NCBI RefSeq assembly: GCF_000979455.1
Contig: NZ_JJOY01000028.1
Coordinates: 1 to 64,000 of the forward strand
Direction of reading: 5' to 3'
Source of the DNA: Methanosarcina sp. 2.H.T.1A.6
Lineage (GTDB): Archaea > Halobacteriota > Methanosarcinia > Methanosarcinales > Methanosarcinaceae
Length of the DNA: 64,000 nt
A program made the translations under genes and the position numbers. Position 1 is the first letter of the stretch, and every line of letters begins with the position of its first letter. The notes below the pieces were generated by a model, which did not search any database, had not been told where the DNA came from, and saw only the letters and a program-made list of their open reading frames with translations. This document shows, piece after piece, positions 42,196 to 59,814 of the stretch.

Positions 42196-43080
42196 TTACA
42201 AAGTAATATCTTTTCTAAGAAATGTAATGAAATTTATTATTAGAAGTATAATAGGTGTTATTATCAGCACTACAATGTTCATCCAGAATTCTCTAAAACA
42301 CTGAGTGAGAGTATATCTAGTATCAAAAATCCCTCTAATGATTGGTTCTACGTTAACTCCCATAAAACTCAAATCAGCTCTGCCAGTTACAGCCTCTGCA
42401 TAGTGATGCAGTGGTGATAGATTCAAAAGTTGCGTGATCAATATCCCTTCATTCGATGCTTGACCTGTCAATATGGCAACAACTGTCTTGAGAATTGCAC
42501 CAAATAATATGCAGATAAAAATCCATATAACAATGTTGCAGGTTAGTGAATCAGTGGAGTTTTTTACTATCGTGGAGATTAAAATTGCGATTCCCAAAAA
42601 TGTCACCGCATAGAAAAATGTGAGAATTGCGAACACGGCTATTCTGATAAGTTCCGAGTATCCGACCTCAACTCCATAAAAGATCAAGAGTGTTCCTACA
42701 GATACAAAAACCGAAAATACAACTATAGCAGCTATCAATAACATTGATCCAAGTAATTTCCCTGCGAGAATATTATCCCTGAATATTGGATGAGTTAATA
42801 ACACATTCAGTGATCCGGATTTCTGTTCTCTGACAACTGCATCAAATCCCAGAGCTATGCCAACCAACGGAGTAAATTGGGATATCATTTTGACATGAAT
42901 GCTACTCAGGAGGACTGAATTATTACCATATGCCATGGAACCGACCATCACGGAACCAAGCATATAGGTAGAGGCAAATACTATTACGGTATATGTTGCA
43001 AGCAACACCAAAAATCCGGCATCTTGAAGATGGTCAGCAGCTTCTTTTTGAGCAACCACAAATACATTATTATTTTTCAT
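42196..43080 (-). CDS. ABC-2 permease (NosY-like), module 1, second permease
   Basis: A 294-residue membrane protein with six helices. It shows the pattern common to all eight permeases here: an N-terminal VVAQKEAADHL amphipathic lead, LVGIALGFDAVVREQKSGSL and then NVLLTHPIFRDNILAGKLLG in the first loop, and a large outside loop with LSPLHHYAEAV before the last helix. It is of the COG1277/NosY type. It follows the other permease by 5 nt and presumably pairs with it and with the ATPase encoded upstream in the operon. Confidence 0.85.
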   Translation of the reverse strand: MKNNNVFVVAQKEAADHLQDAGFLVLLATYTVIVFASTYMLGSVMVGSMAYGNNSVLLSSIHVKMISQFTPLVGIALGFDAVVREQKSGSLNVLLTHPIFRDNILAGKLLGSMLLIAAIVVFSVFVSVGTLLIFYGVEVGYSELIRIAVFAILTFFYAVTFLGIAILISTIVKNSTDSLTCNIVIWIFICILFGAILKTVVAILTGQASNEGILITQLLNLSPLHHYAEAVTGRADLSFMGVNVEPIIRGIFDTRYTLTQCFREFWMNIVVLIITPIILLIINFITFLRKDITL

Positions 43081-43085
43081 TCAAA

Positions 43086-43991
43086 TTACCCCATATCCTT
43101 TGATACATCCTGACGCAAAAATGTTATAAATGCTATTATAATCAAAAAGATAGGAGTAATAATCAAAATTAAAACATTTATCCAGAGGTCATTCCACCAC
43201 TGTTTCAGGGTGTATTCCATGTCAAATATACCTCTCACGTTTGGTCTCTCACTCGAGACACCTCCCCAACTTAAACTAGGACTACCACTTACTGCCATAG
43301 CATAATGATGTGCTGGCGTCAATTTTTGAATATCTGCGTTGAGTCCTAAAAAACGCTCATTATTGTCTAAATCCGTGGGTTTATGATCGGTTACAATAGA
43401 AGCAGTTGTAGCACAAATCATACCAAATACAATACATAACACAACCCAGATCGCTATGTTGTATACTAGTGATTTCGTTGCGTTTTTTGTCACAATCGAA
43501 CTAAGTATGCCAAGTGACAGAAATATTGATAGATATAAGTATGTAAGAATTGCAAAGATTACCAATCGGTTCAGAATTGGTGAACTTAACTCGGTTCCTG
43601 ATGCCAAAAGTATTGTTCCGAGAACTGTGAAAATTGATATAAATACTACCAGAATTAGTGTAATCATTGCTCCAAGTGTTTTTCCAGCAATGATATCATC
43701 CCTATATATTGGATGCGTCATAAGCACACTCAAAGACCCGGACTCCCGCTCTTTGCTAATTGCATCGAAGCCAAGTGCAATTCCCATAAATGGCAAGAAA
43801 AGGGAAACAATATGAGAGATGTCAAGATAACCTCTGGATATGGAATTCCCTTCGGGCCCAATTCCAGAACCATAACTTAGAGAGAAAACAATAGTAGTGA
43901 ATACCAGGACAAGTATTGCAAACCTCGGACTCCATATATTGTCTGCAAATTCTTTTTGTGCGATTACAAACATATTCCGGTACTTTTCCAC
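43086..43991 (-). CDS. ABC-2 permease (NosY-like), module 1, first permease
   Basis: A 301-residue protein with six helices. Family blocks are VIAQKEFADNIWSPRF, GFDAISKERESGSLSVLMTH and LTPAHHYAMAVSG. It begins 14 nt after the propeller gene's stop. Within the module the two permeases differ from one another more than each resembles its counterparts elsewhere, which suggests a fixed heterodimer. Confidence 0.85.
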   Translation of the reverse strand: MEKYRNMFVIAQKEFADNIWSPRFAILVLVFTTIVFSLSYGSGIGPEGNSISRGYLDISHIVSLFLPFMGIALGFDAISKERESGSLSVLMTHPIYRDDIIAGKTLGAMITLILVVFISIFTVLGTILLASGTELSSPILNRLVIFAILTYLYLSIFLSLGILSSIVTKNATKSLVYNIAIWVVLCIVFGMICATTASIVTDHKPTDLDNNERFLGLNADIQKLTPAHHYAMAVSGSPSLSWGGVSSERPNVRGIFDMEYTLKQWWNDLWINVLILIITPIFLIIIAFITFLRQDVSKDMG

Positions 43992-44005
43992 AATTAACCC
44001 TCACA

Positions 44006-45604
44006 CTATTTTTTATGTATGCAGACGAATGCAATTAATACCCCAATAAATGCAATAATTGCAGGAAATCCAGGTAATCCAGAAGTGTTTGAAGTGGTAT
44101 CTTCAGTGCCATTTACTTTTGAATGTTCGTCTATATCTTTTTTGATAATTACAGCTTCGGATGCAGTACTGTTTGAGTAATTTCCTGCAGATGTTTGTGT
44201 GTGGGTACCTTGTTCATGTATTCCAAAAATAATATTATCTACAGCAATGAAGTGTCCGGATGGGTCTATACTTAACCTATCAAAATCGTTCGATAGTAGT
44301 TGTGTGTTCCACATATCATGTGTGCTGGTGTTTAGTACTGAGAGCTCATGATCTTTAACGAATAGAACATCTGTACCTTCCCACGAGTAATAGAGTACAT
44401 TCTCAATTGTCAATATATCTGATCCGTTGAGTAAAAATAGGTCATAAGTTCTTGTATAAGATGGAGTCGGGGAGTTGGGATTGAGACTGACTGCTGAGAT
44501 ACAACCATTAGGCACCACCCTACCGTCAATATCTTTATCCTTCTCGATCAGTTTTTTCATCTCTCCTGTTATTGAGAGAGAATACAGTGCACATGAATCA
44601 TCAGAACATTTTTTAGTTAGAATCTTTTCACTGTCTGGATACCATTGTATCACCCTTGAAGAACCAGTAGTAAAAGTTTTAATTTTTATAGGCTTCTCCA
44701 GGTCTTCATCCATAAAATATATATCGTAACTGACATCATCTATTTTTTCTGATGTTTTAATCTCATAGAATAGTAATTTTTTACTATCCTGACTCCATTT
44801 TTCGCCATACATTCCAACCTGCTCTGCAGAGTAAATCGGATTTAATGTTCCATTTTCAATATCTAAAATAATAATCTCGTGGCTGTTTTTTGAAAACACA
44901 ATTTTCTTACCATCTGGAGACCATTCCATATCGTCTATTTCTACGTTATCACCCGATATGCTAAAATTAAAATCATTTTTTTCATCCATATCGTAAATGA
45001 TAATTTTTCCAGACACGAGTAAAGCTATTTTATTCTCTTTTGGAGACCATTTAAAGTTAGATAAACCGGTTTCTAATCCTATCATTTTTGAATCTAATTC
45101 TACCTTTTCAATAAGATTTAGATCATTTGACATAACGAAAAGACTGGCAGATTTTATCTTATACCTGCTTCCTTCTACCAGCTCCATATATGCAAAATAA
45201 TCACCAGATTGGCTCCATACAGGAGGAGTAATTGTTTTTCCACCATTTCTGGAAGTCATTTCTGCCCATGCAAAACGCGTTATTCCAGATCCATCCGCAT
45301 TTGCTGCATACAACGCATCTACACCACCAAACTTAGTTTTTCCTTTCGGATATGCACTAACAAAAACATCAATCAGCATATGGCTGCCATCAGGGCTCCA
45401 GATTATATCAAAAACAGGTTTATTTCCGATATCAAGGCGGTTCGTGTCCACAAGACTTATGATATCTTTACCCACTGTCTTATTCAAGTCAGATACTACG
45501 CTTACATTCGTTTGGTTTAGACTACCACTTGCAGAAACTGGTTGAAAAGAAGTACAAATTAGAGCAGTGACCATCAGTATTAATGTGATCTGTTTATTGA
45601 ACAT
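44006..45604 (-). CDS. secreted TolB/WD40-like propeller with PGF-type anchor, module 1
   Basis: A 532-residue protein with a signal peptide (ITLILMVTALICTSFQPVSA). About six TolB-like repeats carry WSPDGSHMLIDV, WSPDGKKIVFSK and WYPDSEKILTKK-type blades. Then comes a Thr/Asn-rich linker, a Gly-Leu-Pro-Gly-Phe sequence, a helix (IIAFIGVLIAFVCI) and a short basic end (HKK). This PGF + helix + basic tripartite end is what archaeosortase-processed proteins carry, so the propeller may be cut and lipid-linked. It lies downstream of the ATPase and directly upstream of two permeases. It probably captures or senses the transported compound. Confidence 0.8.
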   Translation of the reverse strand: MFNKQITLILMVTALICTSFQPVSASGSLNQTNVSVVSDLNKTVGKDIISLVDTNRLDIGNKPVFDIIWSPDGSHMLIDVFVSAYPKGKTKFGGVDALYAANADGSGITRFAWAEMTSRNGGKTITPPVWSQSGDYFAYMELVEGSRYKIKSASLFVMSNDLNLIEKVELDSKMIGLETGLSNFKWSPKENKIALLVSGKIIIYDMDEKNDFNFSISGDNVEIDDMEWSPDGKKIVFSKNSHEIIILDIENGTLNPIYSAEQVGMYGEKWSQDSKKLLFYEIKTSEKIDDVSYDIYFMDEDLEKPIKIKTFTTGSSRVIQWYPDSEKILTKKCSDDSCALYSLSITGEMKKLIEKDKDIDGRVVPNGCISAVSLNPNSPTPSYTRTYDLFLLNGSDILTIENVLYYSWEGTDVLFVKDHELSVLNTSTHDMWNTQLLSNDFDRLSIDPSGHFIAVDNIIFGIHEQGTHTQTSAGNYSNSTASEAVIIKKDIDEHSKVNGTEDTTSNTSGLPGFPAIIAFIGVLIAFVCIHKK

Positions 45605-45766
45605 TCAATCCTTCTCCATAGGTCATCGGCTAAAGATTTTTCTTGCTTGTATGCTATCAATTGGGTAGTGGGGGCGAGTCATTGATCAAATCTAAAAAAA
45701 CGAGCACCCACTCCATAAAGGTGATTTATGACGATTCCATGATCAATAAATGATGCATAAATACTC

Positions 45767-46777
45767 TTATGTCCCCTCAATAATTTTGAGGAACAGTTTC
45801 TGCAGATTCATTTCTTCTTCCTCAAACATGGATACCGTGCCGCCTGCGGTTTTGATGGCTTTTGCAATCTCTGTACGGAGCTTCATTTTTGTATTCACAT
45901 ACAGAGTCACACCCTGAATTTCAAGGGCCTGCACACCCTCTACATTCTTTATGGCTTCTGCAGCTTCAGAGAGAGGAATATCCTGAACCTCAAGCAAATA
46001 ACGCACTCCTTCCTTTGCCCTTACAATATCCCGCAAATCCTCTACCGAACCTACTGCAAGCAGCTTTCCCCTTGCTATTATTGCTATTCTGTCACATATC
46101 TCTTCGACCTCTTCCATAGAATGCGAGCTCAGAAAAACAGTAACTCCTTTGCTCCGGTTCAGGTCCTTTATAAGGTCCCTCATCATCTGGGCTCCAAGGG
46201 GGTCGATACCGCTTGTTGGCTCGTCAAGGAAAAGGACCAGAGGTTCGTTGATCAAAGCCTGAGCAAGCCCGAAACGCTTTCGCATGCCTGTGGAAAAGCC
46301 GCCTGTTTTCTGGTCGATGGCACGGGCAAGGCCGACGGTTTCAAGCAGGCTTACGATCCGCTGTTCCCTGATTTTGGAATCCATATTATAGAGCTTTGCA
46401 TAAAACCGCAGGTTCTGTCTTGCAGTGAGATTATCATAAAAACCGGCAGGCTCAGGAAGGACACCTGTTGTTTCCCTTATGTTTATTACCTCACGGACTA
46501 TATCGAAACCTGCAACTTTCCCGCTTCCTTCGCTTGGTTCAAGCAGTCCGATAAGCATTTTCATAGTTGTGGTCTTTCCGGCCCCGTTTGGCCCGACAAA
46601 GCCGAATACCTCTCCTTTTCTTACCTGCAGGTTCAGGTTGTCAACTGCACGGATCTGGTTTTCCTTTCCGAAAATTTTACTCAAATGAATGGTTTCTATT
46701 GCAAATTGGTCTGTGTGCTGTACAATTTCACTTTGCTCAAATTCCAAACCTGTTGATTCCAAACCTGTTGATTCCAT
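45767..46777 (-). CDS. ABC-2 transporter ATPase, the only one in the cluster
   Basis: A 336-residue ATPase with Walker A GPNGAGKTT (62-70), Q-loop around VLPEPAGFYDN, signature FSTGMRKR (161-168; the usual LSGGQ is degenerate, as in many ABC-2 ATPases), Walker B VLFLDEPTSG (181-190) and the switch His in FLSSHSMEE. A C-terminal domain of about 80 residues follows. The N-terminal 20 residues contain an ESTGL repeat encoded by a 15-bp tandem duplication. It starts 2 nt after the NEW3 gene's stop. It should energise the permeases at 42196-43991, and perhaps the other three permease pairs, which have no ATPase of their own nearby. Confidence 0.9.
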   Translation of the reverse strand: MESTGLESTGLEFEQSEIVQHTDQFAIETIHLSKIFGKENQIRAVDNLNLQVRKGEVFGFVGPNGAGKTTTMKMLIGLLEPSEGSGKVAGFDIVREVINIRETTGVLPEPAGFYDNLTARQNLRFYAKLYNMDSKIREQRIVSLLETVGLARAIDQKTGGFSTGMRKRFGLAQALINEPLVLFLDEPTSGIDPLGAQMMRDLIKDLNRSKGVTVFLSSHSMEEVEEICDRIAIIARGKLLAVGSVEDLRDIVRAKEGVRYLLEVQDIPLSEAAEAIKNVEGVQALEIQGVTLYVNTKMKLRTEIAKAIKTAGGTVSMFEEEEMNLQKLFLKIIEGT

Positions 46778-46779
46778 AT

Positions 46780-48351
46780 TTACCGCCTTCCGAATTTACG
46801 TACTACAAAAACAAGCACAAGGACTGCAAATCCAAGCATTGCGATCCCAAGAAGCCCACTGCTTGCTGATTTTTCAATATTTACTTTGATACTTTTCTCA
46901 GAGCTCATAAAGTCGTCACTCTTTGCCCGTATGAAAATTTCCTTAACACCGGAGCCTGCATTGGCATTTGCAGTAATCTCTACAGGAATGCTTCTGGACT
47001 CTCCTGCTTCCAGCTTTTCTATTGTCCCAAAACTCCGGATCTGAGTGCTGATACCGCTGACAGAGTTAATTTCTAGAGTGACGTCTTTTAGCTCTTCGTC
47101 CCCCTGATTTGAGACGATGACCTGTATTTGAGCGGTACCTCCGGGATTCAGTGCCAGTTCGCTGGAGCTTGAATCAATTTTGAGCAGCTCTTCATTTTCG
47201 ATGTTATTGTTGATACTTACCTCAAGCTGCTGTGTAACTTTTTTGTTTCCGTTTGCCGCTGCCACTGTGACCGGATAAAGCCCTCCTGTAGCGTTCTGAG
47301 AAGGCTTTACCTTTACTGTAAAAGCCTGCTCCTCTCCTGCTTTTAGCATAAGGGAAGCAAGCCTTTGTTCCTTGTTTTCTTTATTGACAAAGTCCACTTT
47401 CCAGCCTTCAGGAAGGCTCAGGACTTCAAGGTCAAGTTTAAGCGACTGATCATACCGGTTTTTCAGGGTAACTGCAAATTCCGCAGTTTTTTCAGGCCGG
47501 ATTCCAATCCCGACCACATTGGAACTCAGGTCTACATACGCACTTAGATCCTCATCATGCGCAAGTTCAGGGTTTATGCTTACACTGACCGGCAAAAATA
47601 CGCTCTGGTTTCCTTTTTCCGGACATGCTGCTATCAAAATTTCATAATCTCCTTCTGTTGCATTGAGAGGAGGATTTATGAGAATTTTAAATTCCTGACT
47701 CCCGTCTCCAGGAACTCCTAACCTCGTAATTCTTGCTCCGTCTGTGGAAAGCAGGTCAACTCCCCACTGCTCGGGTTTTGATACAAGAAATATCCGAAAG
47801 TTTGCTCTACTATCATATTTATTTTCCACAAAAGCCCCAAAGCTGACAGGAATTCCCGGATGTGTCTTTTTTCCCGGAATATCAGAATAAATTTCCAGGT
47901 TAGGCATTGCAGCTCTGTCAACCGTTATCGTAAATTCCCTATATATCGTATCATCAGATTTTCTGACGTTTTCCCCATAGGGGCGAAGACCTATTTTTAG
48001 AGTATACTCACCGTCTTTTGTATTTTCAGGGATTCTGACTTTAAGAACCAGTTCTTTTTCAGCTGCCTTTTCAGGCAGGGTGATGTGGCTTACCTGACTT
48101 CCATCTGCATATATGCCTGCAGTCCAGCCTTCGGGGACTTTGCTTGTGAAAAGCATAACTGATGTGCTCTCAGAAGTATTGTATCCCTTTTCCACAGTAA
48201 AGCTGAACTCCACAAGGTCCCCTGGCCTTGCAACCTTTCCACTGATGTCGTTTCCAACTGTGATCTTGGCAAAGTCAGCTCCGGCAGGAAATGGCATAAA
48301 AATAAACAACATGAATAACACAAGGAGGAATTTTGCTTCATTTTCAGGCAC
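46780..48351 (-). CDS. NEW3-domain surface protein with C-terminal anchor
   Basis: A 523-residue protein: signal peptide (LLVLFMLFIFMPFPAGA), then four similar Ig-like NEW3 domains of about 100-120 residues. Each has a pattern such as GDLVEFSFTVEKGY, PEGWTAGIYADGSQV and IPENTKDGEYTLKIG. A final helix (LLGIAMLGFAVLVLVFVV) and RKFGRR end the protein. NEW3 proteins encoded next to an ABC-2 ATPase are common in archaea and may act as an outer scaffold of the transporter. It is the first gene of the minus-strand operon NEW3-ATPase-propeller-permease-permease. Confidence 0.82.
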   Translation of the reverse strand: MPENEAKFLLVLFMLFIFMPFPAGADFAKITVGNDISGKVARPGDLVEFSFTVEKGYNTSESTSVMLFTSKVPEGWTAGIYADGSQVSHITLPEKAAEKELVLKVRIPENTKDGEYTLKIGLRPYGENVRKSDDTIYREFTITVDRAAMPNLEIYSDIPGKKTHPGIPVSFGAFVENKYDSRANFRIFLVSKPEQWGVDLLSTDGARITRLGVPGDGSQEFKILINPPLNATEGDYEILIAACPEKGNQSVFLPVSVSINPELAHDEDLSAYVDLSSNVVGIGIRPEKTAEFAVTLKNRYDQSLKLDLEVLSLPEGWKVDFVNKENKEQRLASLMLKAGEEQAFTVKVKPSQNATGGLYPVTVAAANGNKKVTQQLEVSINNNIENEELLKIDSSSSELALNPGGTAQIQVIVSNQGDEELKDVTLEINSVSGISTQIRSFGTIEKLEAGESRSIPVEITANANAGSGVKEIFIRAKSDDFMSSEKSIKVNIEKSASSGLLGIAMLGFAVLVLVFVVRKFGRR

Positions 48352-48817
48352 TTATATCCGTCCTCAAAAACATCATACATGTAACAATCAGGAAAAATTA
48401 GTTGAGCTTTAAGCAGGGCTGTAAGGTTCAGCTGATAAAAACCATTGACTTTTTTCACATCTCATGGATCAGCTTCAATTCCCAAAACTCTACTTCATCC
48501 TGAAAAATATCTATCCTTTTCTAAAAAAAATTATTTGCTTATAAGTTTTCCGGCCAGTTTCTCGAACTATCAGGAAATAATGCTTAGATTTTGATAACTC
48601 ATTTTTATAATAATAACAAGTGCGAATTGTTAGAGACTTTGGACATAAAAGTTATATTCATGAAAAAAAGTAGCAAGTTATGGAGTTCAACCGGCGTGGA
48701 AAAAACGATTAAACTCCAACCCCTTAAAGAGGCAAATCTGCATAGTTTTAAGATTACTTAATACTTACATTTTTTTAAAGATTACAATCGCTTTCTAAAT
48801 TTGGACGGGAATTTTAT
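48352..48817. promoter_or_regulatory. divergent promoter region of two export operons, with dispersed element copy 2
   Basis: No gene. It separates the minus-strand NEW3/ATPase operon from the plus-strand propeller-permease modules. At 48540-48680 it carries copy 2 of the dispersed element: GAACTATCA (48564-48572), ATGCTTA (48580-48586), CATTTTT and TGGACATAAAAG match copy 3 at 60605-60735 in order and spacing. If the regulators bind such DNA, this is a likely shared control site. Confidence 0.55.
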
Positions 48818-50539
48818 ATGTTAAAAAATATTGTGGCAGTTATATTTTTGTTGTTGTTTGCTACAAATGTAGCGTCAGCAAACCCGGTATCCAGAGATTC
48901 AAATATTAACGTTACATCGCTTGACAAAATTCTTCAGTTCGAAGAAGGGTTCATAGTAACCTCAACAGCATGGAGTCCCGATGGACAATATTTACTGGTA
49001 ACCTGCTCCAAATGGATTCCTCCCTCAACTAATATTGTTAAACATTACTTATTAGACACGAATTCTCATACTTTCGGGGAAATTGATTATGAGGTCCATG
49101 GCCCGGATACCAATGGCATATTGCAAGCAAAGTGGACCCCCTCTGGTGACAAAATATGCTTTGAAGTTTCAGGATATGGACCAACGGGGCCTGGTAATTG
49201 TTATATATTTTGCAACCCGGACGGAACGAATTTAAGGGGTGTAGGGACCAACTTTACCGATCTTTCAAAGATATTAGAGAACCTTGGGGATATTGGTTTT
49301 CAAAGGAATCTGAAGTGGAGTCCTGATTATAGTAAAATTGTGTTTGAGTGGCAAAAACCCGGAAGCTCTTCTACTATAGTATATATAGCAGATGGAAATG
49401 GAAAAAATGCACATGAACTTTCTTCAGCTACATATCCACAACCTGTCTGGTATGACTCAGATAAAATCTTTATTGTTAAAGATGAAGGAAATATAGAGCT
49501 TCTCAGTGAAGGCGGTGATTTAATTCAGAATTTTCAACCGGAGAATAAAGATGAAAAATACTGTGTTTTTTCACTCAGCCCTGACAGAAAGAAAATCCTC
49601 TTAGTTTCAGGGTTACCAGGTAGCTTCGATTCACAGACTTATATCTCTAATACCGATGGTTCAAATTTAAAAGGAAACATTTCTTATTATGATGGAGACA
49701 ATCCAGAAGATACCAATCTCTTGACAAAAGAATATTGGCAGCCAAATGGTTCGCTTCTTCTGGTACGTCAGAATGGGAATCTGTATATTGTAGAGGGAGA
49801 CGAAAACAATAAGCGTCTTTTGTATGAAAGCAATGCCAGCGAACCTCAGTGGTTCCCTGATGGAAAGAAAATACTGTTTGTTGAAAATGGATACAAGCTA
49901 TATTCAATCAACGTTGACGGAACCAACCTAACCTTTATCACTAATTTCGGATCGACACCATCTCATTCCTGGTATAATTCAGACAAAATCGATCGTTTTT
50001 CAATTTATTCGATAAGTCCGTCTGGTGATGTTATTGTATTTGCTTCTGCCCTTAACCCAGCTACCGGAAAATTTTATGAAAATGGAACTGATAAAATTAT
50101 TGAAAGTGCGAATGACTCATCTAAATATTCAAGCATTGCTGCCCCTTTGTTTATTGTTAATTCCAATGGTTCCAATCTCACTCAGGTGACACCCACAACA
50201 AGGGGTAGATTCGATATGCTCCGAAAGTGGAGACCTGATGGAAAACAATTTACGATTGAGTCTTATTCCCTTTATATAACTGATTGGGAAGACTCTTTGG
50301 TCGAGTTAAACAATCAAAACTCTTCTTCTATGTGGACTAATATGCCTGTAAAGGAAATTATCGGGGGTGGAAAATCTGGCAACTTTGATAAAGTTCAAAT
50401 CAAAGAACCAGGTTCCAAAAACACATCGCAGGTTACTGAGAGTCAAGAAATTATCAAGCAATCTCCGTCCTTTATGTTTTTACAACTATTTACCTGCATA
50501 ATGGGAATTTGGCTACTGCATAAAAGCCGGGAGATATGA
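48818..50539 (+). CDS. secreted TolB-like propeller, module 2
   Basis: A 573-residue protein with a signal peptide (IVAVIFLLLFATNVASA). TolB-like repeats follow (AWSPDGQYLLVTCS, KWSPDYSKIVFEW, SLSPDRKKILLVSG, WFPDGKKILFVEN, WRPDGKQFTIES). Then come a linker and a C-terminal helix (FLQLFTCIMGIWLLH) preceded by Pro-Ser-Phe, in the place where modules 1 and 4 have Pro-Gly-Phe. It is near-identical in layout, and 573 residues long, like module 3. The permease gene begins 4 nt later. Confidence 0.82.
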   Translation: MLKNIVAVIFLLLFATNVASANPVSRDSNINVTSLDKILQFEEGFIVTSTAWSPDGQYLLVTCSKWIPPSTNIVKHYLLDTNSHTFGEIDYEVHGPDTNGILQAKWTPSGDKICFEVSGYGPTGPGNCYIFCNPDGTNLRGVGTNFTDLSKILENLGDIGFQRNLKWSPDYSKIVFEWQKPGSSSTIVYIADGNGKNAHELSSATYPQPVWYDSDKIFIVKDEGNIELLSEGGDLIQNFQPENKDEKYCVFSLSPDRKKILLVSGLPGSFDSQTYISNTDGSNLKGNISYYDGDNPEDTNLLTKEYWQPNGSLLLVRQNGNLYIVEGDENNKRLLYESNASEPQWFPDGKKILFVENGYKLYSINVDGTNLTFITNFGSTPSHSWYNSDKIDRFSIYSISPSGDVIVFASALNPATGKFYENGTDKIIESANDSSKYSSIAAPLFIVNSNGSNLTQVTPTTRGRFDMLRKWRPDGKQFTIESYSLYITDWEDSLVELNNQNSSSMWTNMPVKEIIGGGKSGNFDKVQIKEPGSKNTSQVTESQEIIKQSPSFMFLQLFTCIMGIWLLHKSREI

Positions 50540-50543
50540 TATT

Positions 50544-51404
50544 GTGAACAAAGACAGCGTTTTAACACTGGCGCAAAAAGAATTCTCGGACAAATTGTAT
50601 GAGCCCAGTTTTATTATACTGCTGGCCATCTTTACGGGCACTATATTTGCATATTTGCAAAATCGTGCAGGTGGAGATAATTTTGGGGATGTCGTCCAGG
50701 TGATTGCAGTATTTTTTCCGTTAATAGGCATAGCCCTTGGATATGACGGGATCATTAAAGAAAAAAATAGCAAAAGCCTCAATGTTTTATTGACACAACC
50801 GGTTTTCAGGGATAATATTATTACAGGTAAATTCCTGGGGATTTCAATAACTCTTGCTCTGGTAGTATTTTTATCCCTCGTAATAATTGCAGCTTCAGAC
50901 TTTATTATTTCCGGAAAAATTGCTGAGTTTGATTCCCTCTTGCGGCTGTTTATTTTCGGGATATTTACCTTTCTTTATCTTTTACTTTTTGCCGCATTTG
51001 GGCTTTTTACTTCAGTCTGGTGTAAAACCGAAATTGAGTCCCTTACCTTTGGAGTTTTTGTCTGGATCAATATGTGTTTCGCCCTTGGCCCCACTATAAT
51101 AATGCTGGCGTCTTTCGCATCAGGTCAAACACTGTTTGATATGACAAAAGAATTTGCTTCTACAGCATCCTCATTTTACAATATATCGCCTTTGCATCAT
51201 TTTGCTGAGGTAACCGTTGGAGCCCAGGATTTGAGTTTTTATGGAGGGTTCAATGTTCAGAATGATGTACATGGATTTCTGGATACCGGCTATTCACTAT
51301 CTTACCTGCTTGGATATTACTGGCAAAACGTGATGATTTTACTAATTCTTCCGCTTCTGTTTCTGGCAGCCTCATACATTTCACTTTTGAGAGATGATAT
51401 TTAA
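50544..51404 (+). CDS. ABC-2 permease (NosY-like), module 2, first permease
   Basis: A 286-residue protein with six helices. TLAQKEFSDKLYEPSF opens the protein, followed by GYDGIIKEKNSKSLNVLLTQ and FRDNIITGKFLG; a later outside loop holds ISPLHHFAEVTVG. The start codon is GTG. It is the closest relative of the permease at 54166-55023, with nearly identical helices and divergent loops. Confidence 0.87.
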   Translation: MNKDSVLTLAQKEFSDKLYEPSFIILLAIFTGTIFAYLQNRAGGDNFGDVVQVIAVFFPLIGIALGYDGIIKEKNSKSLNVLLTQPVFRDNIITGKFLGISITLALVVFLSLVIIAASDFIISGKIAEFDSLLRLFIFGIFTFLYLLLFAAFGLFTSVWCKTEIESLTFGVFVWINMCFALGPTIIMLASFASGQTLFDMTKEFASTASSFYNISPLHHFAEVTVGAQDLSFYGGFNVQNDVHGFLDTGYSLSYLLGYYWQNVMILLILPLLFLAASYISLLRDDI

Positions 51405-51416
51405 GGAGGAAATAAC

Positions 51417-52301
51417 GTGGAAAATATCTCAAATGTCAAAGTAATAGCCCAAAAAGAGTTTGCTGATCATCTGAAAAGTCCTGTATTCCTTTTATTTACG
51501 ACCACTTTCATGCTGGTTGTCCTTGCCTGGTCGTATGTACAGGGAACAGAAGTCGAATATACTGTAAATGTTCTTGGCAGTCCTGATTTTATGAGAGGAT
51601 TTGAAGGAGTCGCAGAGGTTGTCAGCCGTTTTGCTCCAGTTATGGGTATTGTACTGGGTTTTGATGCAATTGTCAAAGAAATAAAATCAAGTTCCATGAA
51701 TGTTTTATTGACACATCCTGTGTTTAGAGACAATATAATTCTTGGTAAAATCCTTGGATCAGGCTTATGTATTCTACTGGTGCTTTTCTTTTCCATAAAT
51801 CTGGCAACAGGAGTTATGCTCATGGCTTCTGGTCTTCCTGTTACGATGCAGCAAATCATAAGGATTGAAATGTTTGTATTTCTGACTTTTTTCTATGCTT
51901 TAATATTCCTCGCAATATCTATTATGATCTCAACAATATCAAAAAAATCAAATAATTCACTTATGTTCAACCTTATTTTCTGGCTTATCATAACAGTATT
52001 GCTTGCCAAGCTAATATTTACTGTAAGTTATGCCTTTTCTGAAAATCTAAATATAGCAAATGACCAGACTCAGGCATTAAAGAACTTCTTACCTGATTAT
52101 CATTTTACTGCAACTGCCGTGGGAGTCAAGAGTACTGATACAGGAATGACTTCCGGAATCGGAGGGATATTTGACACACGCTACACACTTGGAGCCTGGG
52201 CAGGGCAGTTCTGGCCAAACTTAGCATATCTTTTTGTGCTGCCTTTCATCTTGCTTATAGGCTCCATACTTGCGTTTTTGAAAAAGGACATAACGTACTG
52301 A
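51417..52301 (+). CDS. ABC-2 permease (NosY-like), module 2, second permease
   Basis: A 294-residue protein with the block VIAQKEFADHLKSPVF, GFDAIVKEIKSSSMNVLLTH and a C-terminal FDTRYTLGAWAGQFWPN, ending in FLKKDITY. The start is GTG after AAGGAGG. It is paired with the preceding permease 12 nt upstream. The last 140 bp are almost identical to the end of the module 3 gene. Confidence 0.87.
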   Translation: MENISNVKVIAQKEFADHLKSPVFLLFTTTFMLVVLAWSYVQGTEVEYTVNVLGSPDFMRGFEGVAEVVSRFAPVMGIVLGFDAIVKEIKSSSMNVLLTHPVFRDNIILGKILGSGLCILLVLFFSINLATGVMLMASGLPVTMQQIIRIEMFVFLTFFYALIFLAISIMISTISKKSNNSLMFNLIFWLIITVLLAKLIFTVSYAFSENLNIANDQTQALKNFLPDYHFTATAVGVKSTDTGMTSGIGGIFDTRYTLGAWAGQFWPNLAYLFVLPFILLIGSILAFLKKDITY

Positions 52302-52439
52302 AGAAGAAACTCTTATGAAAACAACTCTCGGTTAAGTGGCACAGCAAAAATATCCTTTCATTCTGGTGCCAAAACCAGAAGAACTAATTTTTTTAGATTG
52401 TAATAAATCTAACTTTCAAAATTCAGGATGGGAATTCAA

Positions 52440-54161
52440 ATGTTAAAGAATATGTTAATTCTTTTTTTGATATTATTTGCTACAAATATAACATTAGCAA
52501 ACCCAGTATCAGAAGATCCAAATCTTAACGTTACATCGCTTGAAAAAATTCTTCAGTTAGAAGAAGGATTTGTAATAACTTCAACAGACTGGAGTCCTGA
52601 TGGACAATATTTGCTTGTAACCTGTTCCAAGTGGGTTCCTCCTTCAAAAAATATTGTTAAACATTATCTGTTAGATATGAATTCTCATACTTTTGGGGAG
52701 ATCAACTATGGAATTGAAGAGTCAGATACAAACGGCATATTGGAAGCAAACTGGGTCCCATCTGGAGACAAGATCTATTTTGGAGTTTCAAAGTTTGCCG
52801 GGCCGAGAGACTCAGGTAGTTGCTTTGTTATTTGTAATCCAGACGGTACAGATTTGAGGGGTGTAGGAACTAACTTTACCGATCTTCAAAGCGTAATGAA
52901 GGATATTGGAAATATTGGTCGTCAAAGAAATCTTAACTGGAATTCCGATTCCAGTAAAATTACATTTGAATGGCAAAAACCCGGAAACGCTTCTACTGGA
53001 GTATACATCGCAAATAGAGATGGAACAAACGCCCATGAACTCTCTTCGGCTACGTACCCACAGCCGGTCTGGTATGACTCTGAAAAAATCTTTATTGTTA
53101 TGGATGACGGAAATGTGGAGCTAATTAATGAGAATGGTGTTTTAATTCAAACTTTCCAGCCTAAAAACAATAATGAAAAATATTGGGAATTTTCACTCAG
53201 TCCTGACAGAAAAAAAATACTCTTAATTTCAGGGTTACCAGGTAGTTTCGATTTACAGACTTATATCTCTAATACAGATGGTTCGAATTTAAAAGGAAAT
53301 ATTTCTTCTTACGATGGAAAAGACACAGAGATCTTGACAAAAGAATTCTGGCAACCAAACGGTTCTCTTTTGCTGGTAAATAATGATGGAAATCTGTATA
53401 TTGTAGAGGGAGACGAAAATAATAAGCGTCTTTTGTATAAAGGCAATGCTAGCAAACCCCAGTGGTTCTCAGATGGAAAGAAAATACTATTCGTTGAAAA
53501 TAAAAATAAACTATATTCAATTGACATTGATGAGACCAACCTAACCTTTATCACTAATTTCGGACTTACATCTTCTTATTTCTGGGATTTATTCTGGAGC
53601 CCTCTATATAAGGCTAAACAATTTTCGATAAGTCCATCTGGAAATATCATAGTCTTCACATCTGCCCTTTATCCTGATAGCGGAAAGCTCATTGAAAATG
53701 AGCCCGGCCCTTCAAAACTTCAAAGTATTGCTGCTCCATTATTCCTTGTTAACTCTAATGGATCTAATCTCACTCGGGTAACGCCTATAATAAAAGGTAG
53801 ACACGACATGTTTAGAGAGTGGAACCCTGATGGAGAACAGCTCACAATTGGATCTATAGTGTTTACTTCAGATAGCGATTGGAATTATGGAGAGAATTCT
53901 CTGGTCGAATTGAACTCCGAAAATTCTTATCCCATCTGGAAAAATATGCCTGTAAAGGAAATTCTCGGGAGCAAAGAGCCCAGTACCATTGATGAAACTA
54001 AAACTGATGAATCCAACTCTACAAACGCCCCACAGTTTTCAAATTCATCACAGGTTACGGAGCCTGAAAACACAAACAAACAATCTCCTTCTTTTATATT
54101 CTTACACCTTTTTGTCTGTATATTAGGAGTCTGGCTAATACATAAAAACTGGAAGTTGTGA
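52440..54161 (+). CDS. secreted TolB-like propeller, module 3
   Basis: A 573-residue paralogue of the module 2 propeller (same length, signal peptide, repeat positions and end, PSFIFLHLFVCILGVWLIH). I start at ATG 52440 because it aligns with the module 2 start and the DNA before both ATGs is similar (GGGAATT). The region around residues 395-420 is one of the least conserved, so ligand preference may differ. The linker carries an added Asn/Ser/Thr stretch. Confidence 0.82.
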   Translation: MLKNMLILFLILFATNITLANPVSEDPNLNVTSLEKILQLEEGFVITSTDWSPDGQYLLVTCSKWVPPSKNIVKHYLLDMNSHTFGEINYGIEESDTNGILEANWVPSGDKIYFGVSKFAGPRDSGSCFVICNPDGTDLRGVGTNFTDLQSVMKDIGNIGRQRNLNWNSDSSKITFEWQKPGNASTGVYIANRDGTNAHELSSATYPQPVWYDSEKIFIVMDDGNVELINENGVLIQTFQPKNNNEKYWEFSLSPDRKKILLISGLPGSFDLQTYISNTDGSNLKGNISSYDGKDTEILTKEFWQPNGSLLLVNNDGNLYIVEGDENNKRLLYKGNASKPQWFSDGKKILFVENKNKLYSIDIDETNLTFITNFGLTSSYFWDLFWSPLYKAKQFSISPSGNIIVFTSALYPDSGKLIENEPGPSKLQSIAAPLFLVNSNGSNLTRVTPIIKGRHDMFREWNPDGEQLTIGSIVFTSDSDWNYGENSLVELNSENSYPIWKNMPVKEILGSKEPSTIDETKTDESNSTNAPQFSNSSQVTEPENTNKQSPSFIFLHLFVCILGVWLIHKNWKL

Positions 54162-54165
54162 TACA

Positions 54166-55023
54166 ATGAACAAAAACTGTGTTTTAACACTGGCACAAAA
54201 AGAATTCTCGGACAAACTGTATGAACCTAGTTTTTTTATACTGATTACCATTTTCATGTGCACAGTTTTTATATATATGCGAAGTAATGAAAGTGGTGAG
54301 AATTTTGTGCAAGTTGTCCAAGCAATCGGGGTATTTTTCCCGTTAATAGGCATAGCTCTTGGGTATGATGGAATTATTAAAGAAAAAAATAGTAAAAGTC
54401 TCAATGTTTTATTGACACATCCGGTTTTCAGGGATAATATTATTACAGGCAAATTTCTCGGAATTTCAATGACTCTTGCTCTTGTGGTATTTTTGTCCTT
54501 AATATTAGTTGCAGCTTCAGATTTTATTATTTCAGGAAAAATTGCTGCATTTGATTCCCTTTTGCGCCTGCTAATCTTCGGGATATTTACTTTTCTTTAT
54601 CTTTTAGTTTTTACAGCGTTTGGACTTTTCACTTCAGTCTGGTGTAAAACAGAAATAGAATCCCTCACCTTTGGAGTCCTTGTCTGGATCAACATGTGTG
54701 TCGCCTTAGGACCTACAATCATGACACTTGCGTCTCTCGTGTCAGGTCAATCGCTGTTTGATATGACAAAAGAATATGTTTCGACTACAGCTGCAATTTA
54801 CAATATTTCACCTTTACATCATTTTGCTGAAGTGACTGTTGGAAAACTGGATTTGAGTTTATTCGGGTTTCATGTTATGGCAGATATAAATGGGTTTCTT
54901 GATACTCGATATTCTATGTCCTATCTAACTGGATATTACTGGCAAAATGCGATAATTTTGTTAATTCTCCCTTTTCTATTTCTGGCAGCTGCATATATTT
55001 CATTTTTAAGAGATGATATTTAA
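54166..55023 (+). CDS. ABC-2 permease (NosY-like), module 3, first permease
   Basis: A 285-residue protein with six helices, paralogous to 50544-51404. It has the same lead TLAQKEFSDKLYEPSF, GYDGIIKEKNSKSLNVLLTH and WCKTEIESLTFGVLVW. It begins with ATG 4 nt after the propeller stop. Differences concentrate in the large outside loop before the last helix (KLDLSLFGFHVMADING). Confidence 0.87.
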   Translation: MNKNCVLTLAQKEFSDKLYEPSFFILITIFMCTVFIYMRSNESGENFVQVVQAIGVFFPLIGIALGYDGIIKEKNSKSLNVLLTHPVFRDNIITGKFLGISMTLALVVFLSLILVAASDFIISGKIAAFDSLLRLLIFGIFTFLYLLVFTAFGLFTSVWCKTEIESLTFGVLVWINMCVALGPTIMTLASLVSGQSLFDMTKEYVSTTAAIYNISPLHHFAEVTVGKLDLSLFGFHVMADINGFLDTRYSMSYLTGYYWQNAIILLILPFLFLAAAYISFLRDDI

Positions 55024-55035
55024 AGAGGGAACAGT

Positions 55036-55920
55036 ATGGAAAATTTCTCCAACGTCAAAGTCATAGCACAAAAAGAGTTTGCTGACCATTTGAAAAGTCC
55101 TGTATTCCTTTCTTTTACGGCAACTTTTACGCTGGTCATCCTTGCTTATTCGTGTTTACAAGGCATGGAAGTCGAATATACTTTGAATGTTCTTGGCAAT
55201 CCTGATTTGATGAGAGGGTTTGAAGGAATTGTACAGGTTGTAGGTCGTTTTGCACCTATTATAGGAATAGTATTGGGTTTTGATGCAATTGTCAAAGAAA
55301 TAAAATCAAGTTCTATGAATGTTTTATTGACACATCCCGTATTCAGGGATAATATAATTTTTGGCAAAATCCTTGGATCTGGCTTATGTATTCTACTGGT
55401 GCTTTTCTTTTCCATCAATCTGGCAACCGGAATCATGCTAATAATTTCAGGAGTTCCGGTTACGATGCAGCAAATCACAAGAATTGAGATATTCGTACTT
55501 CTGACTTTCTTTTATGCCTTATTCTTCCTTGCAATTTCCATAATGATCTCGACAATATCAAAAAAATCAAATAATTCTCTTCTGTTCAACATCATTTTCT
55601 GGCTTGTAATAACAATATTAATTACCGATCTGCTCTTTACTGTAAGTCTTATTTTATCTGGAGATAGTCATTCAGCGCAGGCTCAGACTCAGATTTTCAA
55701 GAATTTCCTTCCTGATTATCAGTATACTACGACTGCTATAGGAATCAAGGATGCTGACACAGGACATACTTCAGGAATAGGAGGGATATTTGACACACGC
55801 TACACACTTGGAGCCTGGGCAGGGCAATTCTGGCCCAACCTGGCGTATCTTTTTGTGCTGCCATTCATCTTGCTTATAGGCTCCATACTTGCGTTTTTGA
55901 AAAAGGACATAACGTACTGA
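55036..55920 (+). CDS. ABC-2 permease (NosY-like), module 3, second permease
   Basis: A 294-residue protein paralogous to 51417-52301 with the same length, the same VIAQKEFADHLKSPVF lead and the same last segment. It ends the tandemly duplicated unit. A hairpin terminator lies about 195 bp downstream. Confidence 0.87.
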   Translation: MENFSNVKVIAQKEFADHLKSPVFLSFTATFTLVILAYSCLQGMEVEYTLNVLGNPDLMRGFEGIVQVVGRFAPIIGIVLGFDAIVKEIKSSSMNVLLTHPVFRDNIIFGKILGSGLCILLVLFFSINLATGIMLIISGVPVTMQQITRIEIFVLLTFFYALFFLAISIMISTISKKSNNSLLFNIIFWLVITILITDLLFTVSLILSGDSHSAQAQTQIFKNFLPDYQYTTTAIGIKDADTGHTSGIGGIFDTRYTLGAWAGQFWPNLAYLFVLPFILLIGSILAFLKKDITY

Positions 55921-56114
55921 AGGAGAAAATTCAGAGCATGAAATACTAACCGATAAAGAGATAAAATCTATGGTTTCAAACACAAACAAATATTTTTTTA
56001 GGTTCTTTGCCGTTTACAGCAGATTACGTAGCTTAATTTAAGGACGAACCTGTGTTGTAAGAGTTCCACACAAAAAAACGCACATGAAATTTTTCCAAAT
56101 AGCAGGCACAAAAA

Positions 56115-56140
56115 ATGAAAGTACTTGAAAGCACTTTCAT
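56115..56140. terminator. bidirectional hairpin between convergent operons
   Basis: ATGAAAGT (56115-56122) and ACTTTCAT (56133-56140) form a perfect 8-bp stem with a 10-nt loop. It lies in the 269-bp gap where module 3 (plus) and module 4 (minus) converge, and A-rich and T-rich stretches surround it. Confidence 0.5.
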
Positions 56141-56189
56141 TCCAAGACAAAGAACTCAGTTAAAAGACAAAAAACTCATTTCCCTCACA

Positions 56190-57098
56190 TCAAGCACTTA
56201 TATCCTCCCTCAAGAATTTCAGATATGCAACTATCAGAAGGATTAGAGGAGCTATGGACAGGACTACAAGATTTGTCCAGAATTCTTTTAACCACTGAGC
56301 CAGAGTAAAACGAATATCCAGAATCCCACTTATATTTTCCCTTTCTCCTCCTGCCCCCCAGCCAAGGTTTGCCCTTCCAGTGCTTAGTTCTGCATAGTGG
56401 TGCATTGGGGACAAAGCAGAAAGACTGCTGGTTATATCAAACCCAGCACTTACTATAGGTTCAAGAGAATAACGGATAAAAGTGAGTATCCAGGTAAACA
56501 TAATACAAAGAGTTAACCAGATAACAATATTATAGACAACTGAGTCCGTTGCTTCTCGAATAAAGATAGAACAAACAAGCCCTATACCAAGAAACGCCAG
56601 AGCATAAAGGAAAGTAAGAATGAACCAGACCGCAATTCGGCTTAATTCCATTACGCTTACTTTTGTTCCCAGAAGGAGAATAATTGTTCCTAAGGAAATT
56701 CCGCTTGAGACCAGCATAACCACCAGAAGAAGAAGTACAGATCCAAGCATTTTCCCAAGAATTATCGTGTCCCTGAATACGGGATGTGTTAACAAAACGT
56801 TCAAAGATGCCGACTTTCTTTCCTTTATCACACTATCAAAACTTAAAGCGATACCTACAAGTGGGCTGAACCAGGTCATCATCAATGAGGTATTATAAAA
56901 CCCTTCCAGAACTGCTGATAGAGGTGCAGGTATCTCTCCTAACTGGCTATAGAATTCTGTCTGAAGGATTTCTCTATAGGTGACTGCAAATATTGCCAGT
57001 ATTAAAGTTCCGAGTAAAGACACAAAAATAGGGCTCCAGAGCCTGTCTGCAAACTCTTTTTTGGCAATAATCAGAGCTTTTTCGAAATCACAATTCAT
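56190..57098 (-). CDS. ABC-2 permease (NosY-like), module 4, second permease
   Basis: A 302-residue protein with six helices and the shared blocks IIAKKEFADRLWSPIF, SFDSVIKERKSASLNVLLTH and LSPMHHYAELSTG. Its start overlaps the stop of the preceding permease (ATGA). It is more like the module 1 permeases than those of modules 2 and 3. Confidence 0.86.
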   Translation of the reverse strand: MNCDFEKALIIAKKEFADRLWSPIFVSLLGTLILAIFAVTYREILQTEFYSQLGEIPAPLSAVLEGFYNTSLMMTWFSPLVGIALSFDSVIKERKSASLNVLLTHPVFRDTIILGKMLGSVLLLLVVMLVSSGISLGTIILLLGTKVSVMELSRIAVWFILTFLYALAFLGIGLVCSIFIREATDSVVYNIVIWLTLCIMFTWILTFIRYSLEPIVSAGFDITSSLSALSPMHHYAELSTGRANLGWGAGGERENISGILDIRFTLAQWLKEFWTNLVVLSIAPLILLIVAYLKFLREDISA

Positions 57099-58000
57099 CC
57101 CTTCTCCCCTCCTATATCCCTTCTGAGAAATACCATATACGAAAGTATAAAAATCAGTACAGGTATGGCTGTCAGTACAACCAGATTTGTCCAGTAATCC
57201 GCAAGCCAGGTTCCAATTCCGAATCTGGTATCAAAAATTCCATTAGTATCTTTACCTGAAGAAATTCCAAAGCTTCCATAACTTACACGGACTCCGGTTA
57301 CAGCTTCAGCATAATAACTTGCAGGAGAAAGTTTTTGTAAGTCTTCGCTCATGCTCATAGCCTCTTCATTGTGTCCAAGATCGACTATCAATTCCCCGGT
57401 AATGATGGATGAGGCAGCAGTAACTATAGCCCCGAAGATCAAAACCAGATTTATCCAAACTATAAGCCCGGAAATAAAAGAGCTTTCTGAACTCTTCGAA
57501 ATAATTGACATTAACAGGCTGAAGGCAAAAAAACCTGAAAGGTACAAAAAAGTGAGCAGTGAAAAGATGAGTATCCGGTTCAGTTCAGAAAAGCCAACAT
57601 CTATCCCCGTTAATATCAGAAGTATACCTATTGAAGCGATGACCGAAATAAAAACTACAAAAATAAGAGCTCCAAGACCTCCTATGATTTTACCACTTAT
57701 GATATTGTCCCGAAAAACAGGATGTGTCAGTAATGTATTCAACGATTTCGAATTTTTTTCCCTAACAACCGAGTCAAAGCCAAGCGCAAGGCCGAGAATG
57801 GGGATAAAAAGTGTTATTACCTGAGCAATATCAAGAAAGCCAAATTCAAAGATGTTATATCCGTTTATTCCATATTCAATACTCATTGAAAGAAGAATCA
57901 ATGTGAAAATCCCAAGAAGCATCTTGAAACTAGGGCTGTACAGGCGGTCTGCAAATTCTTTCTGAGCAATGACTTCAATATTTTTCACGTCTGCCTTCAC
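57095..58000 (-). CDS. ABC-2 permease (NosY-like), module 4, first permease
   Basis: A 301-residue protein: VIAQKEFADRLYSPSF, GFDSVVREKNSKSLNTLLTH, LSPASYYAEAVTG. It is translationally coupled at both ends by ATGA overlaps, to the propeller gene before and the second permease after. This is the most compact of the four modules. Confidence 0.86.
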   Translation of the reverse strand: MKADVKNIEVIAQKEFADRLYSPSFKMLLGIFTLILLSMSIEYGINGYNIFEFGFLDIAQVITLFIPILGLALGFDSVVREKNSKSLNTLLTHPVFRDNIISGKIIGGLGALIFVVFISVIASIGILLILTGIDVGFSELNRILIFSLLTFLYLSGFFAFSLLMSIISKSSESSFISGLIVWINLVLIFGAIVTAASSIITGELIVDLGHNEEAMSMSEDLQKLSPASYYAEAVTGVRVSYGSFGISSGKDTNGIFDTRFGIGTWLADYWTNLVVLTAIPVLIFILSYMVFLRRDIGGEKG

Positions 58001-59814
58001 AGAGAATTCCTCCTTCGGATGAATAAAAGAAGGAGCAAGATTAAAGTAGTTCCTCTGAATCCCGGAAGCTTGTATTCAGATTTTGAATTGTCCTCATTTC
58101 CAGCATCAGAGGATAACTCCAAATCTGCAGATGTTACCTGAGATGCGGAGGAGGATTCTTCCACGACAAGAACTTTACTTGCTGGACTGTATCCTGTTTT
58201 ACTGGCATTTATCACAGATCTGCCTGCATCAGGACAACTGTAGTTCAGGAAACCTGAACTATTGGTAAAACCTATTTCTTTTTCATTAAGGGTCAGCAAG
58301 GCATCTGCAATAGGTTCCGACATGCAGCGAACTCTTAGTTCGCAGTTTTCTCCTTCTGCAGGCGTCAGGAGATCAATTGAGAGAGGGTCTTCATATCCTT
58401 CGAGTTTTATTATGGATAAATCTGTGAACTCGTTTCGAACGAGCAGTCTGCTTCCATCAGGACTCCAGCCCCTCAGATACCTATCTTCCAGAAACCTATA
58501 ATTATTACCATTTTCAGTAAGCTGTATTTTTGTTGATCCGTCCGGGCTGGCAACAAAAACAGAATCTGATGAAATAAAACTGATAAAATCTCCTGAAGGA
58601 TGCCATTCATAGTCGGTTATTGCGGATGCGATAAGGCTTTTTTCGCTTCCATCAGGGTTAATCGTATAAAGGTTATCTTCCTGTGCATAAGCTATTTTAT
58701 CTCCTTTCGGGCTCCATCTGGGCTTGAAAACAATATATCCTGTAAACTCTTCAAGCACTTTTGCATTTTTTCCTATCGAGTCTGTCTGAAATATAGTGAC
58801 TCTGTCATCGTTTACGGTACTGAAAATAAGACTTTTTCCATCCGGGCTGAAACTAAAAACATCTTCATTTCTCACAAAACTTGTTGAAAGCTGAACTTCA
58901 TCGGTTCCATCAATTTTAATTGAATAGAGACCAAAATTTTCATCAACATAGAATATTCTGCTGTCATCAGGGCTCCAGGCAATCAGTATTCCTTTATCAA
59001 CAAGTCTATTATTCTCTGTCCCATTTTCATTTATTATCCAGAGGCCTGTTTCCTCGTCTTCAGTCCTGCCAGTAACACTATATGCTATTTTTTTGCCATC
59101 ATTGCTCCACAGCGCAGTCTCTACACGATTGGATGTATCTGTAAGCTGCTGGAGCACATAGCCATCCGGGTCAAGTAAATATAATTGATAATTTAGAGGG
59201 TTCTGATCCATTATTATAAGGGCCTTTGTGCCTTCTGGATTCCACATAAAATTAGTTTGCCATTCAATGTCCAGAATATTTTCCATTAATTCGTCAACTG
59301 TTGTATAATTACATTCACCTGCAGTTTTGATTAGTGTTTTATCCGGATCGGCAGTTACATAAAAGTCCCTTACCGTATTAATATTTGCAAAAATTCCGAT
59401 ACGATTTCCATCCGGACTCCAGGTTGTTTCCTGTGTATTGGGGTTTTCCAGGATGTGCAAGCTCAGGGATTTCTCTTTCGTGTTACCTGGAGTTGATACA
59501 AGTTCCCGAATTCCACTTCCGTCTGCGTTCATGATATAAATTGAATGAAGAGTAGCTCCATACTGAGAGTTTATAGATGCTTCTACCACCAATCGGCTGC
59601 TATCCGGACTCCATGAACCGCTAATTATAGGTTGCTCTTTGAGATTGGTTCCAGAAGATTCTACAAGGCCGTCAAAATAAGGGTTCACTATTTGTGATAT
59701 ATATGTGGTCTCTTCAATGCTCATGCTGAGGTTTTCGGATGAAGCTGCAAAACCCGTGGATATACTTGAGATTAGCAAGATTAAAAACAAGCTTATTTTC
59801 AGTAGTCTTAGCAT
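57997..59814 (-). CDS. secreted TolB-like propeller with PGF-type anchor, module 4
   Basis: A 605-residue protein, the longest of the four. It has a signal peptide (LFLILLISSISTGFAA) and about nine blade motifs (WSPDSSRLVVEA, WSPDGNRIGIFA, WSNDGKKIAYSV, FSPDGKSLIFST, WSPKGDKIAYAQ, WSPDGSRLLVRN and others). A small extra domain around residues 490-560 (SEPIADALLTLNEKEIGFT, SSGFLNYSCPDAG) resembles a carboxypeptidase-regulatory-like beta sandwich. A Ser/Glu linker, Leu-Pro-Gly-Phe, a helix and RRRNSL form the archaeosortase-like end. Confidence 0.83.
   Translation of the reverse strand: MLRLLKISLFLILLISSISTGFAASSENLSMSIEETTYISQIVNPYFDGLVESSGTNLKEQPIISGSWSPDSSRLVVEASINSQYGATLHSIYIMNADGSGIRELVSTPGNTKEKSLSLHILENPNTQETTWSPDGNRIGIFANINTVRDFYVTADPDKTLIKTAGECNYTTVDELMENILDIEWQTNFMWNPEGTKALIIMDQNPLNYQLYLLDPDGYVLQQLTDTSNRVETALWSNDGKKIAYSVTGRTEDEETGLWIINENGTENNRLVDKGILIAWSPDDSRIFYVDENFGLYSIKIDGTDEVQLSTSFVRNEDVFSFSPDGKSLIFSTVNDDRVTIFQTDSIGKNAKVLEEFTGYIVFKPRWSPKGDKIAYAQEDNLYTINPDGSEKSLIASAITDYEWHPSGDFISFISSDSVFVASPDGSTKIQLTENGNNYRFLEDRYLRGWSPDGSRLLVRNEFTDLSIIKLEGYEDPLSIDLLTPAEGENCELRVRCMSEPIADALLTLNEKEIGFTNSSGFLNYSCPDAGRSVINASKTGYSPASKVLVVEESSSASQVTSADLELSSDAGNEDNSKSEYKLPGFRGTTLILLLLLFIRRRNSL

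Follow-up and report, generated by a model that had tools for sequence, protein, structure and literature searches.

We describe here a gene cluster of Methanosarcina sp. 2.H.T.1A.6 in which one ATP-binding cassette (ABC) ATPase gene lies among four modules, each with a gene for a beta-propeller protein (W) followed by genes for two permeases (Pa and Pb). The stretch of DNA analysed, referred to as the window, is the first 64,000 nucleotides of contig NZ_JJOY01000028.1, and all positions for this genome are positions in the window. Gene coordinates and spacings are from open reading frames, and the window proteins were assigned by matches to Pfam profiles. The genes of the cluster are:

46780..48351, minus strand: NEW3/CARDB immunoglobulin (Ig)-repeat, membrane-anchored scaffold protein (PF10633 and PF07705), directly upstream of the ATPase gene
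45767..46777, minus strand: ABC ATPase of the DrrA/NosF/ABCA class, the proposed common motor (PF00005, 3e-28)
44006..45604, minus strand: W1, module 1 propeller, with signal peptide, WD40/PD40 blades and a tail of PGF, transmembrane (TM) segment and basic residues
43086..43991, minus strand: P1a, module 1 permease a (PF12679, 5e-41; a-clade)
42196..43080, minus strand: P1b, module 1 permease b (PF12679, 1.4e-30; b-clade)
48818..50539, plus strand: W2, module 2 propeller (PD40, 3e-9)
50544..51404, plus strand: P2a, module 2 permease a (PF12679; a-clade)
51417..52301, plus strand: P2b, module 2 permease b (PF12679; b-clade)
52428..54161, plus strand: W3, module 3 propeller, duplicate of W2 by its identity (PD40/WD40-like profile match)
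54166..55023, plus strand: P3a, module 3 permease a (PF12679; a-clade; identity to P2a)
55036..55920, plus strand: P3b, module 3 permease b (PF12679; b-clade; identity to P2b)
57997..59814, minus strand: W4, module 4 propeller, with C-terminal beta domain and PGF and TM tail (PD40, 8e-19; structure model)
57095..58000, minus strand: P4a, module 4 permease a (PF12679; NosY-like model)
56190..57098, minus strand: P4b, module 4 permease b (PF12679; b-clade)

The NEW3 and ATPase genes are 2 nt apart on the minus strand, with module 1 starting 162 nt further on. Modules 2 and 3 are on the plus strand and divergent from the NEW3 gene, and module 4 is on the minus strand, converging on module 3. The spacing from propeller to permease gene is 14 nt for W1-P1a and 4 nt for both W2-P2a and W3-P3a, and there is a 4-nt overlap for W4-P4a. 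A sequence-only reading of the window had described eight NosY-like permeases as four adjacent pairs, each behind a propeller gene, and the open reading frames, spacings and Pfam matches all agree with this. The single ATPase and single NEW3 protein that it placed upstream of module 1 are also borne out, with one ABC_tran and one NEW3/CARDB match in the cluster. By sequence, modules 2 and 3 arose in a recent duplication (identity 65% for W, 79% for Pa and 81% for Pb).

Permeases, ATPase and propellers

The eight permeases are all members of PF12679 (E from 3e-24 to 5e-41; 86-141 bits against a cut-off of 27.2). A search of the whole 4.07 Mb genome gave 11 such matches, eight of them within the 18 kb of the cluster (82-140 bits) and the other three (22-63 bits) each beside an ATPase gene of its own. 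Chance is excluded for the clustering of permease pairs and propellers around one ATPase. In a tree of 103 permeases the pair members split into an a-clade and a b-clade, and each module therefore most likely forms a Pa/Pb heterodimer. NosY is the only match of the a-permease profile among PDB sequences (4e-18), and is also the best fold match for the model of P4a (mean pLDDT 76; Foldseek 4.6e-7, TM-score 0.72/0.80). In all module types conservation is highest between TM2 and TM3, at the coupling helix of this class, where identity across types is 67-78% as against about 43% overall.

The ATPase (PF00005, 99.5 bits) has an intact Walker A motif (GPNGAGKT), an FSTGM signature and LFLDEP/H-loop, as read in the sequence. 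It matches NosF at 2.8e-46, but nucleotide-binding domains (NBDs) of the ABCA family score higher. The order NEW3 then ATPase is kept in the complete loci of relatives.

The four propellers match PD40/WD40-like models. The model of W4 (mean pLDDT 82) shows a beta-propeller and, towards the C-terminus, another beta domain and a TM segment. Its matches in the PDB are generic propellers, including TolB, with low TM-scores over the whole chain, and against the TolB model TIGR02800 it gives 82.7 bits, below the cut-off of 343.15. The propellers had been taken as secreted, but W1 and W4 probably stay attached to the cell surface and are not released, because they end in a PGF-TM-basic tail of the archaeosortase type (read by eye; PGF-CTERM models gave no match at E<=1). 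Archaeosortase A is present in the genome (TIGR04125, 256.7 bits).

Modules and motors in related genomes

We surveyed 31 Methanosarcina genomes and 238 genomes of the class. G numbers refer to genomes and L numbers to loci that were read, and module types are named after the window modules, plus a type 5. An orthologue of the ATPase is present in 12 of the 31 Methanosarcina genomes, exactly once in each, and is 87-94% identical to the window ATPase. Permeases of the cluster group are present in 13, with two to twelve per genome, which is one to six pairs. The ratio of modules to ATPases is 4:1 in the window genome, 6:1 in G024, 3:1 in G001 and G025, 2:1 in G005, G020 and G028, 1:1 in G002, G007, G013, G015 and G022, and 1:0 in G004. 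Modules and ATPase thus occur together in 12 genomes and modules only in one, with none having the ATPase only (Fisher p 9e-8, uncorrected for relatedness). Across the class, modules outnumber ATPases in 10 of the 238 genomes, these being seven of Methanosarcina together with G111 (2:1), G172 (2:1) and G135 (3:2). Outside Methanosarcina the genes mostly form an operon of five in the order W-Pa-Pb-NEW3-ATPase, as in Methanococcoides, Methanolobus and Methanoperedens among others. This form is seen across the Methanosarcinales and is therefore likely to be the ancestral unit.

The orthologous ATPase is the only one beside a single module of type 1 in L029, of type 4 in L022 and L103, and of type 2 in L025, L026 and L027. 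It lies next to a type 5 module in L033, and the type 4 module of the same genome is on another contig (L034). In L028 eight genes follow one another with no gap or overlap longer than 22 nt, comprising a type 5 module, a type 4 module and one NEW3-ATPase pair. The ATPase tree tracks the organisms and not the module type. The ATPases of L029, which has only a type 1 module, and L103, which has only a type 4 module, are sisters (100/99) with 98.5% identity, and at the DNA level the loci are 98.3% identical over 1541 bp in NEW3 and 97.3% over 1004 bp in the ATPase. The DNA match starts within the NEW3 signal peptide, with unlike module types before the breakpoint. L103 is from a metagenome-assembled genome, with a run of N (a scaffold gap) between NEW3 and the ATPase and a gap-free P4b-NEW3 junction. 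Judged from this DNA comparison, the two loci are a natural case of module exchange on a fixed motor.

There are also two cases, L021 and L034, that by their gene remnants are ones of a spare motor having decayed with the module being kept. In G001 (L021 9043-9796) there is a 5'-truncated and frame-broken copy of the ATPase gene, 94% identical to the intact ATPase of that genome, whose three modules show no damage. In L034 an intact type 4 permease pair is followed by a remnant that joins the first ~138 residues of NEW3 to the last ~29 of the ATPase, and the working motor of this genome is elsewhere, in L033. Modules without a motor of their own are under purifying selection. In simple pairwise estimates of the ratio of non-synonymous to synonymous substitution (dN/dS), those without an adjacent motor give 0.07-0.25 for permeases and 0.22-0.37 for propellers, close to the values for the ATPase (0.10-0.12) and NEW3 (0.14-0.16). 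The propellers change fastest by this measure, as is expected for the outward-facing part.

Extra propeller genes without permeases lie beside modules in L024 (8542-13899), L030 (9163-10896) and L031 (717-2600), and propellers therefore multiply independently. The rule of one propeller per permease pair, as first proposed, holds in the window but is broken in these relatives. In Methanoculleus, the stretches read in L081, L083 and L087 have related permeases and no ATPase, and there is an ATPase-permease-NEW3 unit in the same genome. This is a possible independent case of motor sharing.

Two regulatory genes flank the cluster:

60925..61755, minus strand: HTH2, linked membrane-anchored double winged-helix regulator (HTH_24/HTH_5)
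39368..40162, minus strand: HTH1, linked membrane-anchored double winged-helix regulator, 66% identical to HTH2

The genome has no third protein of this kind, and relatives are found beside homologous clusters in most of the loci read; they are likely to be the cognate regulators of the cluster. A Yip1-family membrane protein gene at 40914-41585 adjoins the cluster, as do homologues in L025, L029 and L032, and a gene for a secreted protein with a weak NEW3-like match is upstream of the cluster at 37295-38605.

The case for a common motor

We think it probable that the cluster specifies an ABC machine resembling NosDFY, in which four interchangeable modules use one common motor. Exchangeable permease pairs on a common ATPase had been proposed from the window alone, and the proposal is well supported by the presence of one ATPase with one to six modules, by the module swaps and relic motors, and by the lack of an unpartnered ABC-2-class ATPase in the neighbourhoods read elsewhere in the genome; the physical association of ATPase and modules is a prediction from sequence, and the propellers may, as was suggested, select substrate or control opening. 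We strongly infer from the genome comparisons that the motor is shared; that the sharing is physical is predicted, as are its stoichiometry, docking, direction and substrate.

Several observations weigh against a common motor. Relatives such as G128, with two modules and two ATPases, have one motor per module, and several of the multi-module genomes are draft assemblies. The exception that a shared motor does not explain is G004 (L023 6119-9507), a one-contig genome that has an intact module 1 and no orthologous ATPase or NEW3. At the least, then, modules can persist once their motor is gone. Downstream of this module there is another permease-ATPase pair and a lone W4 propeller. We also considered conservation of the coupling helix as proof of sharing and rejected it. 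The segment is 61% identical to that of distant relatives as well, most of which have an ATPase of their own and which were found by a pattern in the same segment. The trait is family-wide, and is therefore consistent with a shared motor but does not discriminate.

One alternative is that modules 2-4 are driven not by the cluster ATPase but by other cellular ABC ATPases, with promiscuous NBDs of the DrrA type. There are about 70 ABC_tran domain matches in the genome from which such motors could come, and in G004 an ABC ATPase of 36% identity lies, together with a permease of its own, about 1.1-1.9 kb downstream of the motorless module. We consider this quite unlikely, as every ATPase near this class has an adjacent TM partner of its own. 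The neighbourhoods of nearly all the matches in the window genome were read, as 47 regions with a few weak PF00005 matches left out, and there is no unpartnered ABC-2-class ATPase in them outside the cluster, all of those scoring at least 130 bits against the class having a TM partner next to them. Only one single-domain ATPase clearly lacks a partner, a LolD/MacB-like one beside formate dehydrogenase genes, and the next-best ATPase has an identity of no more than 42%. Orphan ATPases elsewhere were thus rejected as motors for modules 2-4. Dedicated ATPases elsewhere had been named beforehand as the finding that would count against sharing, and in the window's genome the search for them found none. 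The genus-wide co-occurrence of modules and cluster ATPase also argues against other motors. With all the other ABC-2-class ATPases that were read partnered, the cluster ATPase is the simplest available motor for modules 2-4.

The motorless module of G004, and the multiplication of propeller genes without permeases, could also be seen as signs that the extra modules are ATP-independent or decaying paralogues, either receptors or leftovers, for which a motor is no longer needed. This is very unlikely, as the permeases and propellers of modules with no motor beside them are intact, with purifying selection acting on them as on the others, and the segment that contacts the NBD is kept in all. A more serious alternative, though still on the unlikely side, accepts the shared motor but sees its task as plain export or immunity of the LanFEG type, expelling membrane-active compounds, and not as NosDFY-like work on an outside protein. 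The make-up of the system fits this, with a single ATPase, a pair of unlike ABC-2 permeases and a protein at the surface; the ATPase gives 189 bits against the lantibiotic-protection subfamily, and the two linked membrane-bound regulators suggest that an envelope response is induced. However all the scores are below the curated cut-offs, and the closest permease by both sequence and fold is NosY and not LanE or LanG. A PADLOC scan for a defence role gave only generic ATPase and HTH matches.

A shared motor of the kind proposed would consist of an ATPase homodimer and the NEW3 scaffold, and a module of a permease a/permease b heterodimer and a surface-anchored beta-propeller. The single ATPase would engage the modules by turns, with only one Pa/Pb pair docked at any time, and contact would be made by the conserved cytoplasmic coupling helix. 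The permeases would relay the effect of ATP binding and hydrolysis to the propeller at the outer face, much as in NosDFY, where the ATP cycle of NosF and NosY acts on NosD outside. The output could be work on an extracytoplasmic partner, or expulsion of an envelope-directed compound recognised by the propeller. In a wider view, for which we see the balance as about even, this would be an ABC-2 machine of the tool-holder kind, in which a conserved ATPase/NEW3 motor takes whole propeller-permease-permease heads that are duplicated, swapped between genomes as cassettes and diversified at the surface, giving up to six outputs per motor under cognate membrane-bound regulators.

Comparison with known systems

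The statement that no system with this plan had been described is right in part. We found no literature on this archaeal gene set, in a search that most subscription papers were outside, but NosDFY shares the basic plan, and ECF transporters, MsmK and MceG share motors.

NosDFY (PDB 7o0y, 7znq, 7qba) has, like the cluster, an ATPase, a PF12679 permease and a secreted repeat protein docked outside, and the a-permease profile matches no solved protein other than NosY, which also comes closest in fold. It differs in that NosD is a beta-helix (CASH) protein and the cluster partner a PD40 beta-propeller, in that NosY is a homodimer where the cluster modules have an unlike a/b pair, and in that the cluster adds a NEW3 protein and has several modules per motor. 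GldAFG (TIGR03518, 35.1 against 288.5 bits; TIGR03522, 228.5 against 402.6 bits) and LanFEG (TIGR03740, 189.4 bits against a cut-off of 309.75) are matched by the ATPase and permeases only below cut-off, and are without propeller modules. In Archaeoglobales, Methanomicrobiales and Bathyarchaeota there are units with homologous ATPase, permease and NEW3 genes adjacent, but usually with one permease, no match to the W1-W4 propellers and the order ATPase-permease-NEW3. Methanoculleus has further permeases away from such a unit.

For the sharing of a motor the parallels are among importers. Different S-components are proposed to compete for one ECF module in group II energy-coupling factor (ECF) transporters (PMC7755397), which thus also have several exchangeable membrane specificity units on one motor. 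These are however importers, and part of what they share is a membrane subunit, EcfT, whereas the cluster would share only ATPase and NEW3 and swap the whole permease pair. MsmK (PMC4519317) and MceG (PMC9947336) are each an importer ATPase serving several membrane complexes encoded elsewhere, and the cluster ATPase and its Methanosarcina orthologues are likewise single genes with up to six permease pairs in a genome; MsmK and MceG belong to sugar and lipid import classes, with no propeller and no ABC-2 permeases.

The cluster represents a large uncharacterised envelope system of methanogens, and if the motor is physically shared, its modules provide a natural series of heads in which to study the recognition of a permease by its NBD. 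Motor sharing has been described for ABC importers, with no NosY/ABC-2 case in the papers that could be searched, and what appears to be new here is the exchange of whole permease pairs on one ATPase, with a natural swap breakpoint at the start of the NEW3 gene.

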